DNA of 21,617 nucleotides, from assembly GCA_023416335.1 (NCBI GenBank), contig JAEZHY010000240.1, forward strand, positions 1 through 21,617. Reading direction: 5' to 3'. Both the position numbers and the translations under genes were made by a program. Each line of letters starts with the position of its first letter. The stretch's first letter is position 1. Under the pieces are notes generated by a model. The model saw only the letters and a list, made by a program, of their open reading frames with translations, was not told the origin of the DNA and made no database searches. This document shows positions 4,382 to 15,158 of the stretch, in pieces. This DNA is from Pseudomonadota bacterium. GTDB lineage: Bacteria; Desulfobacterota; Syntrophobacteria; Syntrophobacterales; Syntrophobacteraceae.

Positions 4382-5152
4382 TCAGGAGGCCGGTCCGAGA
4401 CGAATCTTCTTCGACGCGGAAATCAGCCGCCCGGCCGGAATCCCGAAAAATGCCCTCAGCACTCTGCAAAGATTCTCCGCGGCCCGGCTCGATCGACGCC
4501 ATGAGGAGTAAAAGGCAATTGCCGTAGAGGGCTTCCTAACGAGCGTAATCAAGACCTTACCGATCCTCACTTTACCATCGGCACCCGATATATCGCTCAG
4601 ATCGAACCCGAGTTCGTCGTTTATGGCGTCGCTGACCGACCTGAAGCATATGAAGGGAATCCCGGCTTCGGCGCATGACTGGGCAACAATTTCGGTTTCC
4701 ATATCCAGCACGGCCTGACCGCCGCCGGCAACCGCCGAAAGAGCCCGCTTGCTCTCCGGCCGCAGAGCAGTGAAAGCCGAGACCGTCTTCACAGTGTTTT
4801 CCGAGAAGAAAACGCTCAGTTCCGGTGGAAAGCTGAAGAACAGGGATGTCCCCGATGCCGGAGATCCGGCATTTCCTGCAACGCAGACATCCCCTACGGA
4901 AAGAGCGGGATGGAGACCTCCCGCAAACCCGGCGAATACAATGAGATCGGGCCGCAAGACAGACAGGGAACTTTTCACCGCTGCCGTAACCGCCCCAGTA
5001 CCCATGCCCGTTTCGACCAGTATTATTTCCTTGTCGTGCAAACGGATCGCAATTTTCTTATTCGGGCTTTTTTCGAGAAGACGCCACTCGGGCACCATCT
5101 TCCTCAGCGGGGCATACTCTTGCGGCAATGCGGCCAATAACATTATTTTCAT
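4382..5152 (-). CDS. Nucleoside phosphorylase/nucleosidase family protein (MTAN/futalosine hydrolase-like)
   Basis: 256 residues from the preferred start. It belongs to the PNP/UDP phosphorylase fold family: N-terminal MKIMLLAALPQE, the conserved glycine-rich FAGFAGGLHPALSVGDV at about residues 73-89, the DMETE segment (150-154) that normally holds the ribose-binding Met-Glu pair, and SVSDA with the general-acid Asp175. Relatives include MTA/SAH nucleosidase, futalosine hydrolase (menaquinone route) and the hopanoid-associated phosphorylase. I cannot separate these from the sequence. The reading frame extends to an ATG at 5209 that overlaps the stop of the upstream gene by four bases (ATGA), which would suit translational coupling. 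I favour 5152 because family members begin at the MKIMLLAALP strand and the extra 19 residues are atypical. It is the downstream gene of a pair with the phosphodiesterase. Confidence 0.8.
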   Translation of the reverse strand: MKIMLLAALPQEYAPLRKMVPEWRLLEKSPNKKIAIRLHDKEIILVETGMGTGAVTAAVKSSLSVLRPDLIVFAGFAGGLHPALSVGDVCVAGNAGSPASGTSLFFSFPPELSVFFSENTVKTVSAFTALRPESKRALSAVAGGGQAVLDMETEIVAQSCAEAGIPFICFRSVSDAINDELGFDLSDISGADGKVRIGKVLITLVRKPSTAIAFYSSWRRSSRAAENLCRVLRAFFGIPAGRLISASKKIRLGPAS

Positions 5153-7284: not shown

Positions 7285-8100
7285 ATGAGAAAGTTTACGA
7301 TTTTCCTGATAGTGGCTGCCTTTGTCGGATGCGCTTTTGGAACCGCGGTTGCGGGAGACACTTTGGCGGAAGTCAAAAAGAAGGGCGTCCTGGTGGGGGG
7401 AGTAAAGGACTCCACGCCGCCTTTCGGCTTCATCAATGAGCAGACTCGCCAGATCGAAGGCTATGACGTCGATTTCCTGAAGGCGATTGCGGACAAACTC
7501 GGAGTGAAGCTTGAAGTGAAGGCGGTCACATCCGCCAGCCGCATGCCGCAACTGACCGAAGGAAATATCGACATAGTCGCCGCAACCATGACCATCACCC
7601 CGGAACGTGCACAGCAGATCGACTTCAGCCATACCTACTTCCTGACCGGACAGAAGTTCCTCACAAAGAAGGGTACCATCAAGGCCCTCAAGGATTTGGA
7701 AGGGAAGAAGATCGGGACTGCCAAGGGTTCCACTTCCGAACAGAATGCAACAAAAGCTCTTCCGACCGCAACGGTGCTTTCCTTTGACGACTACCCGCAG
7801 GCATTCCTCGCTTTGCAGCAGGGCAAAGTCGTGGCCGTGACAACCGACGAATCGATCCTTGCCGGTCTTCGCGGAGCAGCGCCCAATAAAGACGCGTTTG
7901 AAATTCCCGATTTCCAGATTTCCGATGAACCCTATGGACTTGGCATGCGCAAAGGCGACAAGGCGTTTGTGGACGCCGTAAATGCCGCACTTCTGGATAT
8001 GGAGAAATCCGGCCAGGCAGCCGCCATTTTTCAAAAATGGCTCGGCCCCGACAGCAAGACTCCCATGAAGAGGAATTTTCAGATCACCGCCGGTAAATAA
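7285..8100 (+). CDS. Polar amino acid ABC transporter, substrate-binding protein
   Basis: 271 residues; family 3 solute-binding protein that captures the amino acid in the periplasm. The N-terminus is a signal peptide: MRK, a hydrophobic core, and an AVA-GDT cleavage site after residue 23. A cysteine at 16 (FVGC) could instead be lipidated, but the preceding residue is not ideal for a lipobox. The mature protein shows the family pattern: VLVGGVKDSTPPFGF, then EGYDVDFLKAIADKLG with the substrate-contacting Asp, and GNIDIVAATMTITPERAQQIDFS. The sequence is closest in style to glutamate/aspartate/glutamine binders (GlnH/PEB1 type), which is family recognition and not proof of ligand. A GGAGAG ribosome site precedes the ATG. 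Confidence 0.92.
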   Translation: MRKFTIFLIVAAFVGCAFGTAVAGDTLAEVKKKGVLVGGVKDSTPPFGFINEQTRQIEGYDVDFLKAIADKLGVKLEVKAVTSASRMPQLTEGNIDIVAATMTITPERAQQIDFSHTYFLTGQKFLTKKGTIKALKDLEGKKIGTAKGSTSEQNATKALPTATVLSFDDYPQAFLALQQGKVVAVTTDESILAGLRGAAPNKDAFEIPDFQISDEPYGLGMRKGDKAFVDAVNAALLDMEKSGQAAAIFQKWLGPDSKTPMKRNFQITAGK

Positions 8101-8141
8101 TCAACACGGCTGAAGAGAGTTTTCTCAAGGCAGTTTGAATC

Positions 8142-8849
8142 GTGTCCAATTATCAGTTCGACTGGGCGATCGTTACCTCCGGGAAGTACTTCCACTGGAT
8201 ACTCTCCGGAATCGTTACCACCATCGAGATCTCGTCGGTATCGATCGTCCTTGCATTTCTACTCGGGTTGATCATTGCCGTAATGCGCATGAGCACATTC
8301 CGGCCGACGCGGTGGTTTGCCCTGGTGTTCCTGGAGTTCACCCGAAACACGCCCCTGCTCGTCCAGATATTCTTCTGGTATTTCGGGTCTTACAAGATCC
8401 TGCCAACTTTTATAAACGACTGGCTGGGAACCATTAACTTCGAATTTGCAGCCGGGGTGATCGCTCTGTCTATCTACACGAGCGCATTTATCGCGGAAGA
8501 CATCCGATCCGGGGTTCGTTCCATCCCCAAAGAACAGATGGAAGCGGCTCGAAGCGCAGGATTTTCCTTCCTGCGGTCCATGCAGTACATCATTTTACCG
8601 CAGGCGATCAGGATCATTATTCCGCCTCTTATAAACCAGTTTCTCAATTTGACGAAAAACTCCTCACTCGCCATGACCATCGGGGTAGCCGAACTGACGT
8701 ACCAGGCACGGCAGGTTGAGAGCTATACGTTCAAGGGATACGAGGCATTTACCGCAGCCACGGTGGTGTATCTCGGGATGTCCCTTTTCATCGCACTGGC
8801 CGTGAATATGTACAACAAACACGTCCTTACACCCGTTAAAGGCCGCTGA
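8142..8849 (+). CDS. Polar amino acid ABC transporter, permease subunit 1
   Basis: 235 residues starting at a GTG with AAGG upstream. Inner-membrane permease of the HisM/GlnP type. Hydrophobic helices near residues 20-45, 60-80 and 95-115 are followed by the EAA coupling motif (EQMEAARSAGFSFLRSMQYI, about 134-153), which contacts the ATPase, then ILPQAIRIIIPPLINQF and the last helices. The early segment RPTRWFALVFLEFTRNTPLLVQ is typical of the family. Its partner gene begins one base after its stop, so the two permeases are translated together and presumably form a heterodimer. Confidence 0.92.
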   Translation: MSNYQFDWAIVTSGKYFHWILSGIVTTIEISSVSIVLAFLLGLIIAVMRMSTFRPTRWFALVFLEFTRNTPLLVQIFFWYFGSYKILPTFINDWLGTINFEFAAGVIALSIYTSAFIAEDIRSGVRSIPKEQMEAARSAGFSFLRSMQYIILPQAIRIIIPPLINQFLNLTKNSSLAMTIGVAELTYQARQVESYTFKGYEAFTAATVVYLGMSLFIALAVNMYNKHVLTPVKGR

Positions 8850-9962: not shown

Positions 9963-11708
9963 TTATACGGGCCGGGGAAGTCGAATCAGCTCCGATTTGA
10001 GCAGGGAAGCGTAATTTTCACGGAGTTTCAAAAACCTCAATCCATCTTCACTGTCTCCCAGCGAAGCGGCCGAAAGCGAACAATAACCCAGCCGAAAAGC
10101 AAGATAGGCGATCCCATAAAAAACTTCTTTGCCCCAAATGCGTGTACCGGACTCTTCCTCGAACCTTTCGACAAAATAACCCCAGGTATCCGGCCCAAGA
10201 CCAAATTCGATCCGGAAAGCGGAAAGGTCCCATGCAATATCCTGAGGTCCCGGAAAGAAATGGTCGTCAAAATGGTCAGCCGAATCCGTCTTGAAGATTC
10301 TTCCGGTACAGAGTACCCATTCATGGGGCGCTGCCCTGTTGTCGAGGTAAACCGGCCGGATTTCTCTCATCCTCTTTGAACTCGCGACTACCTTCTCGGA
10401 ATATCTTTCCCACTCCGGTCCCAGGCCCTCGATGATATTAGTCCGGATCATTTCAAGAAGCTCGTCCCGTGCCGGCGGTCCCTCGGAGGGGAAAGAAGTT
10501 TCGATAAAGGAAAAATACCTTGCCGCATGATCGAGAAAGGTCTTTTCAGTCTCACCTTTTCGCAGGCGGGTACCAGTCAACACCTCCATGGTCAGGAACC
10601 CATCCCCCGTTTCGATCAGTTGAGGATGGAACCCCGCTTCGGCCAATACTTGCGCTCTCCGGCAAACATGGTTGCCATGGCTGCCAAGCCCGGCAAATTT
10701 CATCAGAACCGCCTTCTTTTTCCCGTCGATCTCCCGCTTCGCTACGAACTTGAGACGCTCATGATGAGGCTGGACAGCGGGAAGATCCGGACCATTTTCA
10801 ACCAGCACGCCTCGCCATTTTCCGGCTGAGACATCCGTAAACTCCGGCCCGCCGGCGCACCCTGAAAATGCAGAGAGTTCATAGCGGATCTGACTGAAAC
10901 TCGTGCTGAACTTCGTATACCGGGGCCACAAACTGCGCGATGTTTCGGAAACGAATTCCGATCCATCAGGCTCCCAACTCGGAAACAGAAAGATCTTCCC
11001 CTCTTCGAAGCCCAGTTCCGCAGCCTTGCGCGCTACAGAGCAAAACGATGATCCGCTGAGCCCCGGACCCTCATCCACCACCAATAAAGGCAGATTTGCG
11101 TGGTCCCGCAGTCTTCTTTCGAGTTCGTGAGAAAGGAAGACTCTCCTGTCGAACGGATGCCCGCGCGGCCTTACAGTGATCGAGAAGGTGCTGCATCCGA
11201 GGTTCTCCAGGGCGCCGCATACCGCTGAAGACAAACTTGTCCCTATGCTCCTGATCCCAATGCATACGACTTTTTCCGGATGTATCGCTTCGTGAAACTT
11301 CTTTGCCGATTCGAGATACATTTCCGGATAGAGTCCATAGAAGGAATATCCCTCCGGAACCGATACTTTTATCTTTTCGGGCAAAGAGTAAGCGGACAGG
11401 CCCAACATTTCCCTTTTGAATTGCCCCAGCACCCTTCGTGCCTCCGCATGTTGCGCTCTTCTGATGCGGTAGAGGGCCTTTCCGGCGAGAAGTCCAATAT
11501 GCCGGAGGGCATCCAGTAATGGAAAAGAGGCATCCATGTCCGGGCATAACGCATCGGCGACCCCGGCCTCCATCTCGCCCGATCGAATCAGAAGATCGCG
11601 GATTCTCTCCCGAGTCGGCGCACCAGCGGCGTCCAGCAGCAGGCAGCGAAGCTCCGACAGCATCGCCTTCGTATTCACTTCCTTTACAAGACTGCGGTAA
11701 ATGAGCAT
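9963..11708 (-). CDS. Phosphoribosyltransferase-like and kinase-like fusion protein
   Basis: 581 residues, no signal or membrane segment. Residues 1-110 are helical with no recognised domain. Residues 120-245 resemble a type I phosphoribosyltransferase: the strand-loop VVCIGIRSIGTSLSSAV (147-163) and a PRPP-loop-like LLVVDEGPGLSGSSF (208-222), comparable to hhhDDxxxTGxT. Residues about 315-545 look like a degenerate aminoglycoside-phosphotransferase/kinase fold: VLMKFAGLGSHGNH with a candidate ATP-binding Lys337, then FLTMEVLTG, and DDHFFPGPQDIAWDLSAF, whose DIAWD matches the metal-binding region of such kinases. The kinase assignment is weaker than the PRTase one. The ATG at 11708 lacks a clear ribosome site; 11663 is a possible alternative. 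It is followed after 14 bases by the HAD phosphatase and is divergent from the radical SAM gene. The set PRTase, kinase and phosphatase suggests nucleotide- or phosphoribosyl-type chemistry on an unknown metabolite. Confidence 0.6.
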   Translation of the reverse strand: MLIYRSLVKEVNTKAMLSELRCLLLDAAGAPTRERIRDLLIRSGEMEAGVADALCPDMDASFPLLDALRHIGLLAGKALYRIRRAQHAEARRVLGQFKREMLGLSAYSLPEKIKVSVPEGYSFYGLYPEMYLESAKKFHEAIHPEKVVCIGIRSIGTSLSSAVCGALENLGCSTFSITVRPRGHPFDRRVFLSHELERRLRDHANLPLLVVDEGPGLSGSSFCSVARKAAELGFEEGKIFLFPSWEPDGSEFVSETSRSLWPRYTKFSTSFSQIRYELSAFSGCAGGPEFTDVSAGKWRGVLVENGPDLPAVQPHHERLKFVAKREIDGKKKAVLMKFAGLGSHGNHVCRRAQVLAEAGFHPQLIETGDGFLTMEVLTGTRLRKGETEKTFLDHAARYFSFIETSFPSEGPPARDELLEMIRTNIIEGLGPEWERYSEKVVASSKRMREIRPVYLDNRAAPHEWVLCTGRIFKTDSADHFDDHFFPGPQDIAWDLSAFRIEFGLGPDTWGYFVERFEEESGTRIWGKEVFYGIAYLAFRLGYCSLSAASLGDSEDGLRFLKLRENYASLLKSELIRLPRPV

Positions 11709-11866: not shown

Positions 11867-11920
11867 CGACCTCACGCATGCATGTTTTCCATTCACAAAT
11901 CCTCTGAAACGGCAGGCAGG

Positions 11921-13972
11921 ATGAATATAGCTCTGGTGTTCCCTCCCTTCTATTTTGAGTCCATGTACAACATGCCCCCGCTTGGGCTGATAAACCTTGC
12001 AACCATGCTCAAAGACTCTCCGCACGCCGTCAGGATCTTTGATTTTCCCCTGGCAATTCGACGAAAAACTCTCGAAATGGGAGAGTCGATTTACCGGGAA
12101 TGCGCGCGGCAGATTCTCTCATTCGAACCCGGGGCTGTGGGCTTCTCCGTCCAGTGCACCACGCTTCCGCCCTCGCTTCGCATCGCCGAAGAACTCAAGA
12201 AGCTCTCTCCACGCACCAAAGTCATCTTCGGCGGACACAATGTCGCTTTTACGGACGAACCGATTCTCTCGCGGTTTCCATTTGTTGATCTCATTGTCCG
12301 CGGAGAAGCCGAGCTGACCTTTCCCGAACTGGTCGAAGCTCTCGAAATCGGAGATAAGCTTAACGAAATAGAAGGCATCACCTTCAGATCCGGAGACCGC
12401 ATTTTACGGACCCCCGACAGAAAGCTGATCGAAAACCTCGACGTACTTCCTGTAAGCGATTACTCCTTCGTCGCTCCTCTCCAGGAGTACCGCGATCTTT
12501 GCGGAATCCGGAGATCCATCGCGATTCTCGAGGTCGGCAGAGGATGCCCTCATCACTGTATCTACTGTTCCCAGTCAATTCTGTGGAGAAGACACGCGAG
12601 GACTTTTTCAATTGAACGCCTCATCAGTGAAATGAAAAACCTGGCGGACAACTTTGGAGCGCAGTGCTTTCTTCTCGCTTACGACCAGTTTACGGCGAGG
12701 CGCGATTTCGCTCAGGCTTTCTGCAATGCGGTTATCGAGGCCGGTCTGAACAGGCTTCCATGGTATTGTATTTCCAGGCTCGATACAGTCGATGCTCCGC
12801 TTCTCAAGCTCATGCGCCAAGCGGGCTGCGAAACCATGTGTTACGGAATAGATTCGGGGTCCGAGAAAACGCTCGCTTTCATCCGGAAGAACATCGATCG
12901 GAATATCCTGTTCGAGAGAGTCAGAGAGACAACCGATCAGGGGATACTGCCTACTTTGAGCTTTGTGATCGGATTTCCCGAAGAGACCGCGGAAGATCTG
13001 GATCAGACGCTGAAACTTGCGCTCATGTCGGCCATAACGGGCAATGCGAACATACTGGTCCAGATGGCGACCATTCTGCCCGGGACCGATCTTTACAAGA
13101 GATATTCCGACCGGTTGGTCCGGGAGGTGGATACGTATTTTTCGCTGGGGATCGAGTTCGATTCAGGCAAACGGTTTCCTGCAGACGACACTCTAATCGA
13201 TTCCGCTCCCCCGATTTTCAGCAGCTTTCACAATCTCCCCTGCCCCGCGGGGGCGCTCAAGAAACTTAATGACCTGGCAAGCTATTATTCCATTATTGCA
13301 TCCCTGTATCCACGATCCCTCCTGCTGCTCAGCATGGAATGCGGTCTTTCTATCGCGGATATCTTCTATGATTTCCTGGATAATGTGAGCAAGCTGAAAG
13401 GGAAAAAAGAGCGCGGTCTGAGTCCCTGGGATTGCTACACGCACTTCGAACCGTTTGCTCGGAAGATGCTTTCACGCTTGAATTCTCTAAAACGGGATTA
13501 CATACCGGAGCTTCTCGACTATGAAACCTGCCTGATTCGCGCCGGCAGCATGGGATCTCACAGGTCCGACCTTGCCGTCGATATCCCTCGCGTCCGGGGT
13601 GCAAAGCCGTTTCGCAATGAAAAGGTTCCAGTCCGGCAGTTCACATTCGACATTCCGCGTCTTATTATGGATTTGAAATCCGGCCGTGTTCCGGAAACCT
13701 GTCCGCGGAGGGGGACTTGGCTCATCTTCACAAAAAATCACGGCGAGATCGACATTCAGGAGATTAATGACTTCGGAGCGGACTTCCTCCAACTGTGTGA
13801 CGGACAGCGAAGTTTGGACTCTATAGCGGGAGAGCTTTACCCGACTTACGGAGCAGGAAAAACCCGCGATGAATTCGCGGTTCTCTGTGCGGAAGCTGCC
13901 GGCGCATTGAGCAAGCTCCAACTGCTTATGCTGCCCTGCTGTTCGGACGAATCCAGAGTGGAAGGGAGGTGA
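11921..13972 (+). CDS. B12-binding radical SAM enzyme with C-terminal PqqD-like domain
   Basis: 683 residues from the preferred start. Residues 1-140 are a cobalamin-binding Rossmann domain (MNIALVFPPFYFESMYNMPPLG, shown in part; FGGHNVAF; DLIVRGEAELTF). The DxHxxG motif is absent, as in many B12 radical SAM enzymes. Residues 200-400 are the radical SAM barrel: CPHHCIYC with Cys209, Cys213 and Cys216 for the 4Fe-4S cluster, and YGIDSGSEKTL and FVIGFPEET later. Residues 430-590 are unassigned. Residues 596-672 resemble PqqD, the RiPP recognition element (INDFGADFLQLCDGQRS, then IAGELYPTYG). Such enzymes typically methylate or rearrange unactivated carbons; the RRE argues for a peptide substrate. 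The gene is open back to ATG 11882, but the family begins at MNIALVFPP and GGCAGG precedes 11921. A 28-codon ORF follows after five bases. Confidence 0.85.
   Translation: MNIALVFPPFYFESMYNMPPLGLINLATMLKDSPHAVRIFDFPLAIRRKTLEMGESIYRECARQILSFEPGAVGFSVQCTTLPPSLRIAEELKKLSPRTKVIFGGHNVAFTDEPILSRFPFVDLIVRGEAELTFPELVEALEIGDKLNEIEGITFRSGDRILRTPDRKLIENLDVLPVSDYSFVAPLQEYRDLCGIRRSIAILEVGRGCPHHCIYCSQSILWRRHARTFSIERLISEMKNLADNFGAQCFLLAYDQFTARRDFAQAFCNAVIEAGLNRLPWYCISRLDTVDAPLLKLMRQAGCETMCYGIDSGSEKTLAFIRKNIDRNILFERVRETTDQGILPTLSFVIGFPEETAEDLDQTLKLALMSAITGNANILVQMATILPGTDLYKRYSDRLVREVDTYFSLGIEFDSGKRFPADDTLIDSAPPIFSSFHNLPCPAGALKKLNDLASYYSIIASLYPRSLLLLSMECGLSIADIFYDFLDNVSKLKGKKERGLSPWDCYTHFEPFARKMLSRLNSLKRDYIPELLDYETCLIRAGSMGSHRSDLAVDIPRVRGAKPFRNEKVPVRQFTFDIPRLIMDLKSGRVPETCPRRGTWLIFTKNHGEIDIQEINDFGADFLQLCDGQRSLDSIAGELYPTYGAGKTRDEFAVLCAEAAGALSKLQLLMLPCCSDESRVEGR
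13964..13972 (+). promoter_or_regulatory. Strong ribosome binding site of the 28-codon ORF
   Basis: GGGAGGTGA overlaps the radical SAM stop codon (TGA at 13970-13972) and almost equals the ideal anti-16S complement. The core GGGAGG ends 8 bases before the ATG at 13978, which is optimal spacing. It is much stronger than the sites of the larger genes around it and is the main reason to believe that the short ORF is translated. Confidence 0.75.
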
Positions 13973-13977
13973 AACGG

Positions 13978-14064
13978 ATGCTGCAAGTGAAGGAAGTCGA
14001 GAAGAAGATCTTGACCACTGATGTTCACGAAAGCACATCGACGACTTATGTCGTGCCTACGTGA
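13978..14064 (+). CDS. 28-residue peptide, candidate RiPP precursor
   Basis: This short ORF, ATG to TGA, encodes 28 residues. It begins MLQVKEVEKKILTTDV, a charged amphipathic stretch that would suit a leader bound by an RRE, and ends STSTTYVVPT, a Ser/Thr-rich and Val/Pro-containing tail that would suit a modified core. There is no Cys. It starts 5 bases after the radical SAM/PqqD gene with an excellent Shine-Dalgarno, and a clear terminator closes the unit 55 bases later. The inference is that it is the substrate of the upstream enzyme, with Val25, Val26, Tyr24, Pro27 or the Thr residues as possible targets. I know no family it belongs to. It could instead be a leader-like or non-functional ORF, but the ribosome site and position make that less likely. 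Confidence 0.6.
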   Translation: MLQVKEVEKKILTTDVHESTSTTYVVPT

Positions 14065-14071
14065 CATGCGC

Positions 14072-14100
14072 CGACGGAATCTCCGGTCCGGAGATAGTCG
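14072..14100 (+). repeat. Inverted repeat after the peptide ORF
   Basis: ATCTCCGG-T-CCGGAGAT is a perfect 8+8 dyad about a single base (14079-14095), flanked by CGAC (14072-14075) and GTCG (14097-14100), which extend the stem past a small bulge. It lies between the peptide stop and the terminator and could stabilise the mRNA 3' end or be a processing site. Confidence 0.5.
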
Positions 14101-14118
14101 CCTGAAACCCGCTCTGAT

Positions 14119-14154
14119 GCCGGGAAACATGTGCACTTGTTTCCCGGCAGTTTT
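14119..14154 (+). terminator. Intrinsic terminator of the radical SAM/peptide unit
   Basis: GCCGGGAAACA (14119-14129) pairs perfectly with TGTTTCCCGGC (14138-14148) around an 8-base loop, followed by AG and TTTT (14151-14154). The 11-bp GC-rich stem is strong and the T-run short, so some read-through into the dipeptidase is possible. I see no separate promoter for the dipeptidase. Confidence 0.8.
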
Positions 14155-14183
14155 GCATCATGTACAGGAGACCGACCACATCC

Positions 14184-15158
14184 ATGCCGATTCCAGAAAC
14201 TGAGGCCCCCGAACCCGACTCCTACATAATCGACGGCCATGTCGATTTATTGTACGCAATGCTCCAATCCCATCCGGATACTTCTTTCGAAAATATATCG
14301 GATTTACCTGTCACGCTCGAAAAAATGCGCGATGCCAATGCCATGGTCATCGTGTCCGCCTTCTACTGCCCCGACACGCATAACGGTGAAGGCTCATCGG
14401 CCCGATTCCTGAAAAACCTTTTCGAGTATGAAGACAAGTACCTGACGAGTCTCGTTCGGATAACTTCATCTGATGCACTGAAACAGTGCATCGACAAGAA
14501 GACACCTGGAATGATCCGGCTCATCGAAAATTCCGACTGCCTTCTTGAAACCAGTCTTGAAACTCTCAGGCGCATTGGAATAAAGGTCGCGGGTCTCACA
14601 CACGTGGGAAGAAACAGGATCGGCGACGGAAACAACATTCCCTTTCCCGACGGGCTGACCGGCGCAGGAAAAGAACTTGTACAAAATCTCGCCCGTGAAG
14701 GCTTCGCTTTCGATGCCGCCCACCTGGCCGAACCCGGTTTTCGCGATCTCACGAGGATTTACGAGGGACCACTTCTGTCCTCTCACACCGGCGTGCGCGC
14801 GCTCTGTGATACTCCACGCAATCTGACAAAAGAGCAAATAAGGGTCATCCTCGACAGAAAGGGCGTAATCGGGATTGCCGCAGACCCCAAAATGCTCTCT
14901 CCCAGCGCAGAGGCTTCCATAGAAGATGTCTTCCGTCACATAGACTGGATCGCCCAGGCTTTCGAGACGGACGGCATTGCGGTTGGAAGCGACTTCTGCG
15001 GCTTTCACACTGTGAATTCCGGCCTCGAAGATATAACCCGCCTGCACGACCTTCGGGCAATGCTTCTGAAAAAGGGATATCCGGAGCAGAGCGTCCGCGG
15101 CATTATGGGAGAGAACTGGTATAAGTTTTACAGTGCACTGCTGACGGCCATGCCGTAA
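14184..15158 (+). CDS. Membrane-dipeptidase family (M19) metallopeptidase
   Basis: 324 residues. Zinc peptidase of the renal-dipeptidase family, which hydrolyses dipeptides including those with D-residues at the C-terminal side. The metal ligands of the family can be placed: GHVDLL (His and Asp of HxD), the bridging Glu in IRLIEN, the His in FDAAHLAE and the His in LLSSHTGVRALCDTPRNLT, plus the late Asp in VGSDFCGF. LTHVGRN is the equivalent of the usual LTH segment. No signal peptide, so it is probably cytoplasmic. The frame opens at 14160, but that ATG follows the terminator T-run without a ribosome site; at 14184 a GGAG lies 13 bases upstream, which is long but better. It lies downstream of the candidate peptide locus and may trim or recycle the product; it may equally be unrelated. 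Confidence 0.85.
   Translation: MPIPETEAPEPDSYIIDGHVDLLYAMLQSHPDTSFENISDLPVTLEKMRDANAMVIVSAFYCPDTHNGEGSSARFLKNLFEYEDKYLTSLVRITSSDALKQCIDKKTPGMIRLIENSDCLLETSLETLRRIGIKVAGLTHVGRNRIGDGNNIPFPDGLTGAGKELVQNLAREGFAFDAAHLAEPGFRDLTRIYEGPLLSSHTGVRALCDTPRNLTKEQIRVILDRKGVIGIAADPKMLSPSAEASIEDVFRHIDWIAQAFETDGIAVGSDFCGFHTVNSGLEDITRLHDLRAMLLKKGYPEQSVRGIMGENWYKFYSALLTAMP

Follow-up and report, generated by a model that had tools for sequence, protein, structure and literature searches.

A 39-residue candidate RiPP precursor with a proposed selenocysteine beside a B12-binding radical SAM enzyme

To our knowledge, selenium natural products are rare. Selenobacteriocin and a radical SAM maturase were reportedly described by Lewis et al. 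in 2021, and the partner is said to be SbtM of Geobacter lovleyi. In a table of 119 selenoprotein families, the one RiPP entry with selenocysteine (Sec) is selenobacteriocin (PMC13188914). A second source describes ApyD as the RRE-containing B12-radical SAM enzyme of aminopyruvatide biosynthesis (PMC10635010). A Sec-containing RiPP is already known as a kind from selenobacteriocin; at the locus described here the precursor, its enzyme and its probable evolutionary route differ.

The window is the whole stretch of DNA that was analysed, 21,617 nucleotides in length. The original prediction had reported a 28-residue ORF immediately after a radical SAM gene as a candidate RiPP precursor, and its reading of the ATG at 13978, of the Shine-Dalgarno site overlapping the radical SAM stop codon and of the frame as far as the first in-frame TGA (14062-14064), which yields MLQVKEVEKKILTTDVHESTSTTYVVPT, was exact. 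A GGAGG-type site precedes most of the homologous ORFs as well. The 28 residues are, however, a truncation: by comparison of 15 loci, coding runs past the TGA, through HAPTESPVRR in the same frame, to a TAG at 14095-14097. The best joint explanation of the data, and a likely one, is that the locus encodes a 39-residue selenocysteine RiPP precursor. The features referred to below are as follows.

11921..13972, + strand: B12-binding radical SAM enzyme, start set by homology (PF02310, PF04055; CxxxCxxC)
about 11966-12334, + strand: B12-binding domain of this enzyme (PF02310)
about 12530-13021, + strand: radical SAM domain with CxxxCxxC (PF04055)
13253..13939, + strand: ApyI/TglHI-like (RRE-type) domain predicted at the C-terminus of this enzyme, likely the leader-binding part
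13964..13972, + strand: Shine-Dalgarno site GGGAGGTGA, read from the sequence, overlapping the radical SAM stop codon (13970-13972)
13978..14097, + strand: proposed gene of the precursor; with the UGA decoded as selenocysteine it gives 39 residues, MLQVKEVEKKILTTDVHESTSTTYVVPT-U-HAPTESPVRR (in-frame conservation across the TGA, 15 loci)
13978..14007, + strand: leader segment MLQVKEVEKK, near the leaders of Cys-type (CHAP-repeat) precursors (comparison with Cys-type relatives)
14062..14064, + strand: in-frame TGA, proposed selenocysteine codon at a Cys position of the CHAPx repeat (TGA in 15 of 15 loci; alignment with Cys relatives)
14079..14095, + strand: SECIS-like hairpin ATCTCCG-GTC-CGGAGAT; its apical loop starts with GU and lies 21 nt from the UGA (published bacterial criteria, own script)
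14095..14097, + strand: proposed true stop codon, TAG (among 15 loci, TAA in 10, TAG in 4 and TGA in 1)
14118..14149, + strand: hairpin of 12 bp located between the precursor and dipeptidase genes, a weak terminator or attenuator (terminator scan)
14160..15158, + strand: M19 membrane-dipeptidase homolog, conserved downstream gene (PF01244, 198.5 bits)

The enzyme gene carries both domains and the CxxxCxxC motif of a B12-binding radical SAM protein. An in-frame ATG also lies upstream, at 11882, and residue numbers are counted from there; C222, C226 and C229 were invariant in 23 aligned sequences. The AlphaFold model of the enzyme (pLDDT 86.6) has a predicted fold resembling CysS, AprD4, OxsB, TsrM and TokK. 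The RRE-like C-terminus proposed in the original prediction was recovered by fold comparison as a predicted ApyI/TglHI-like domain; this part of the protein had no sequence match in the PDB, and its assignment to a particular TglHI subunit is interpretive. The M19 gene was downstream in 14 of the 15 Sec-type loci and was found in 10 of 20 Cys-type loci, some of which lie on short contigs. On the minus strand, at 9963-11708, a gene divergent from that of the radical SAM enzyme encodes a 581-residue protein that matched nothing in Pfam or NCBIfam at E up to 0.01.

Searching with the radical SAM protein, in a run that scored 7993 candidates sharing most words, returned at least 531 proteins with E no higher than 0.001. 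Among the matches listed were the window's own protein, one at 89% identity and others at 53-71%; those from named organisms belonged mostly to Syntrophobacteraceae and other Deltaproteobacteria, and a single scan of viral contigs gave no relative. An alignment of 23 radical SAM proteins led to 35 genome loci. The original prediction had proposed looking for the same short ORF downstream of homologous genes, and we found it, with the same kind of leader (near ML[QK][VI]K.VEKK), in 32 of the 35 loci, about 320 bases from the radical SAM gene in L014 and mostly nearer elsewhere. The three other loci differ from one another. L003 keeps the radical SAM and M19 genes but its precursor is deleted, and what remains of it is the SECIS-like hairpin, now joined to the end of the radical SAM frame (4499-4532); the contig of L009, a sister row, contained no precursor by leader and motif scans; and the contig of L015 ends 78 bases past the radical SAM stop. 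The coupling of enzyme and precursor is therefore not absolute (L003, L009). Of 395 genomes of the phylum sampled separately, 13 carried the radical SAM gene, and the precursor was present in all 11 loci scanned, four of which (L058-L061) are L016, L018, L021 and L022 again; the two left out, L052 and L054, equal L032 and L012.

Behind the leader, the tails fell into two types. The Cys type, at 20 of the 35 loci, has C-H-A-P-x repeats, mostly with Cys at every fifth residue and with up to nine cysteine-histidine units (L053, L063); the tail in L007 is irregular and that in L034 partly masked. The Sec type, to which the window belongs, was present at 12 of the 35 loci and as a second ORF in L007, where a Cys-type (CHAPG-rich, 8046-8237) and a Sec-type precursor (8516-8620) stand in tandem after one radical SAM gene. 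Eleven of 15 Sec-type loci are Cys-free, mostly reading ...TYVVPT, and intermediates are extant: ...TG-CHVPN in L010, ...SA-CHVPT in L012, ...TSHVPT in L032 and ...CHAPSDVRHVPT in L049/L065. The segment STSTTYVVPT, which had been taken for the core, is the variable stretch in which Cys-type and intermediate forms carry CHxP units. In L010 (CHVPN-UHAPT) and L012 (CHVPT-UHAPT) the Sec stands in register with the Cys-every-five repeat; repeat families allow more than one alignment register, but in these two loci the phase is fixed. In nine Cys-type loci (L011, L016, L017, L018, L021, L024, L029, L033 and L034) a further gene lies downstream of the precursor; in both loci where it was scanned it encodes a Trm112-domain methyltransferase, and it is absent from the Sec-type loci of the same clustering.

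A conserved short ORF beside an enzyme with a predicted precursor-binding domain is what marks a RiPP precursor, and we consider it likely that the peptide is one. That much of the original prediction held up, through the conserved leader, the diversified tail, the adjacency to a B12 radical SAM gene with an RRE-like C-terminus and the third-position bias described below; its 28-residue extent did not, and it had not considered selenocysteine. The product could instead be a selenoprotein without being a RiPP, namely a small unmodified peptide active with metals or in redox chemistry while the radical SAM enzyme acts elsewhere. Formate dehydrogenase, too, has UHxP as its Sec motif (Table 1 of PMC13188914), and modification of the peptide is only proposed, but the radical SAM gene is adjacent in 32 of 35 loci, its model has the RRE-like domain and the peptide splits into a conserved leader and a tail, which makes this alternative improbable.

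For the RiPP precursor that we favour, we propose with good confidence that the leader MLQVKEVEKK would be bound by the ApyI/TglI-like C-terminal domain of the adjacent radical SAM enzyme and, with similar confidence, that this enzyme would modify the core around [V-P-x]-U-H-A-P. C-methylation near UHAP is a guess that we rate at somewhat under even chances; it is suggested by ApyD, the best-scoring family, which makes beta-methyltyrosine. Among the 15 loci, the position five residues ahead of Sec is taken by Y, F, H, C, S, R or P; the change from Y to F makes phenol chemistry there unlikely, while a reaction at the beta-carbon would still be allowed. Proteolytic finishing would probably follow the radical modification. 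With low confidence, as for C-methylation, the M19 dipeptidase might finish or recycle the product, and the product might act through its Sec-His pair, by metal binding or redox chemistry.

The case for Sec begins with the frame itself. The first stop of window-type ORFs is always TGA, which is invariant in 15 of 15 loci (the window included), and the frame then reads HAP[TS][EQ]SPVRR before a stop. H, A, P, S, P, V, R and R were each present in all 15 loci, and the variable residues were T in 10 and S in 5, and E in 13 and Q in 2. Parsimony changes at codon positions 1/2/3 on the radical SAM tree of these loci numbered 4/0/23 in the five codons separating the TGA from the hairpin, so that 23 of 27 changes fell at third positions and none at second (binomial p 4e-8). 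The corresponding counts were 0/0/7 in the five hairpin codons and 45/40/43 in the eight triplets beyond the second stop, where the frame signal ends; upstream, they were 12/3/37 in the first 11 codons (leader region) and 8/11/17 in the five variable codons that precede the TGA. Two of the 15 sequences (the L007 second ORF and L049/L065) had been recognised via a DNA pattern, and without them (n = 13) the counts were 4/0/19 in the spacer (p 1.7e-6), 0/0/6 in the hairpin and 34/30/38 after the second stop. The original prediction had named equal synonymous and non-synonymous change as evidence that would count against it; the changes are instead third-position-biased. Judged by these patterns, the region through the TGA is under coding constraint in this frame, and comparison shows the reading frame from 13978 to 14095-14097 to be protein-coding through the UGA. 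The codons for H-A-P vary synonymously among the 15 loci (CAC/CAT, four GCN, three CCN), and H-A-P kept with changing third bases argues that the protein, not the RNA alone, preserves it. Conservation of ESPVRR may be RNA-driven, since the invariant hairpin fixes most of its codons. The Ser/Thr/Val/Pro tail had been described as the end of the peptide, but the most conserved part, U-H-A-P, starts at the UGA.

A SECIS-like element lies just beyond. PMC13188914 gives the bacterial criteria as a loop 3-9 nt long, 4-16 bp in the upper stem, G within the first two bases of the loop, a UGA-to-loop distance of 16-37 nt and an energy of -7.5 kcal/mol or lower. With our own script, restricted to unbroken stems, 14 of the 15 loci satisfied these (7 bp, 3-nt loop, 21 nt, -7.8 to -8.1 kcal/mol), including the window, whose -7.8 kcal/mol is near the limit; the hairpin of L008 failed the strict test. 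The 15 hairpins are near-identical, so the 14 passes are not independent, and the nearly invariant stem yields zero covariation support for the pairing. Background pass rates among ORFs of at least 150 aa in the same loci were 6/225 at TGA, 3/103 at TAA and 6/109 at TAG stops, and 131 of 3000 shuffled downstream sequences passed. The window had no match in Rfam at the gathering score. The ORF had been said to be closed by a strong terminator. The hairpin adjacent to the TGA (14079-14095) is the SECIS-like one and lies inside the ORF; the separate 12-bp hairpin at 14118-14149 has a weak T tract and lies past the true stop, and the scan that listed it found 9 terminator-like sites against 6.4 (sd 2.4) in shuffles. 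A strong hairpin directly after the precursor also folds in several Cys-type loci. In two host genomes, formate dehydrogenase genes (L076 of G012, L078 of G056) also contain a TGA with HGP encoded right after it and, close by, a hairpin whose loop has three bases; five formate dehydrogenase loci with internal TGA were given to the script, and its motif matched these two. The U-H-A-P of the window (14062-14073) resembles the UHxP of formate dehydrogenase, perhaps through convergence.

Were the TGA a true stop, the product would be a 28-residue Cys-free RiPP precursor followed by a conserved RNA hairpin serving as terminator or regulator. Database records can be read this way: a profile search that allowed E values up to 1 gave 35 short proteins, and 17 of the 29 fetched end exactly at the expected UGA (judged from protein records alone), while P0140 continues past that position in another frame, probably as a sequencing or frameshift artefact such as a one-base insertion would give. 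The hairpin is, moreover, strongly conserved as RNA. Against a stop, the codon-position bias persists beyond the TGA and disappears after the following stop, H-A-P is kept despite changing third bases, the first stop is TGA in every locus while the second varies, the register matches the CHAP of the relatives and the alignment has no T tract after the hairpin. We consider termination at the TGA very improbable, and a role of the hairpin as terminator only was rejected, as the coding signature passes through it.

Selenocysteine machinery was surveyed in related genomes, the window's own genome not being among them. SelB (TIGR00475) was above cut-off in 18 of 20 genomes and also in G056, which covers 13 of 14 Sec-type genomes, against 2 of 14 controls; G005 (L006), a multi-contig assembly, had SelB fragments only. 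The precursor copy of G056 lies at about G056:C1:1123438-1123557. For tRNA-Sec (RF01852) we used 70 bits, as the gathering score of 47 is unselective (weaker extra matches in most genomes, 5 of 14 controls passing); 19 of 21 genomes searched had a match of at least 70 bits and 13 of 14 Sec-type genomes one of at least 73 bits, and in G007 (L010), also in several contigs, the score was only 50 bits. The stretch from TGA to hairpin, used as a motif with at most 3 mismatches, had a single occurrence in each of 14 genomes out of 55 from the class of G001, with 0-1 mismatches, and the reversed motif occurred in 0 of 55; among the 395 phylum genomes the forward motif occurred in 3, all previously found here. 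Syntrophobacter fumaroxidans is noted for 39 selenoprotein genes (PMC12013277). With a UGA flanked by coding sequence on both sides, Cys homologs, a SECIS-like hairpin, and SelB and tRNA-Sec in related genomes, we conclude with great confidence that the UGA encodes selenocysteine. SelB and tRNA-Sec would insert it, directed by the hairpin just downstream, a step that we propose with high confidence.

In known selenoprotein genes, readthrough of the UGA competes with termination. Readthrough here could be inefficient, or due to a near-cognate tRNA (Trp or Cys), giving 28- and 39-residue forms of which the short one, with its leader and tail, is functional. The SECIS-like hairpin, SelB and tRNA-Sec speak against this, as do the invariant residues just past the UGA when those before it vary, and we hold it to be quite unlikely. 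An ORF arising by chance was rejected, as it is conserved in homologous loci.

Turning to the origin of the Sec codon, the 15 Sec-type loci and L003 lie on one side of a branch of the radical SAM tree with SH-aLRT 97, in a quick search with midpoint root and no bootstrap. One change on this tree separates Sec from Cys. The midpoint root falls among Cys types; for this reason, and because of the intermediates, we read the change as Cys to Sec. As far as these sequences tell, the Sec lineage probably arose once from (C-H-A-P-x)n ancestors, one repeat becoming U-H-A-P and the other Cys then being lost. A fuller scenario, doubtful as a whole, is that after a single Cys-to-Sec switch one Sec-His unit replaces up to nine Cys-His units and the radical SAM enzyme modifies UHAP, by C-methylation or a carbon-selenium bond, to give a small seleno-organic metal-binding or redox molecule. 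If UHAP itself were modified, the product would be unlike any known selenium natural product. The loci offer a natural experiment, in which the same enzyme family stands beside Cys-repeat and single-Sec precursors with intermediates extant, and the advantage of Sec over Cys becomes testable on a peptide some 40 residues long.

The family is easily overlooked, as the fetched database proteins of the Sec type end at the expected UGA. Source names of these records, where readable, were 'hypothetical protein', and Syntrophobacter sp. SbD1 is represented by one Cys-type and one Sec-type record. No Pfam, NCBIfam or PHROGs model matched the peptide, with Pfam and NCBIfam tried on truncated and read-through forms, and a literature text search of partial coverage, with few subscription papers, gave no report of this peptide family.

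Among known systems, selenobacteriocin (TIGR04081) shares a RiPP precursor with an encoded selenocysteine and a radical SAM partner. Its listed motif is SGUG with two Sec (PMC13188914), whereas the window peptide would have one Sec in VPxUHAP beside an enzyme with a B12-binding domain. Four read-through Sec-type peptides had no NCBIfam match, which rejects membership, and TIGR04081 was over its cut-off in one of 14 Sec-type genomes (G010:C1:18968-19045), away from the precursor locus. CefA (NF038108), a RiPP peptide, has Cys at every fifth residue, as in the Cys-type relatives, but three Cys-type peptides reached 15.7-19.4 bits against a cut-off of 30 and the Sec forms had no match; over 297 phylum genomes the model gave none above cut-off and two below, and membership in this family was rejected as well. 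The radical SAM enzyme had ApyD (NF050148) as its best NCBIfam match and ApyI in its C-terminal part, at 253.7 bits against a cut-off of 750 and 29.8 against 200, and is placed in neither family; in contrast to that system, the seven window proteins scanned against Pfam and NCBIfam included no MNIO and no P450, and the peptide matched neither collection. The B12 radical SAM methyltransferases TsrM, TokK and CysS share the predicted overall fold over roughly the first 500-630 residues; they differ in their substrates and are 12-19% identical, and the window enzyme adds its predicted ApyI/TglHI-like C-terminal domain.
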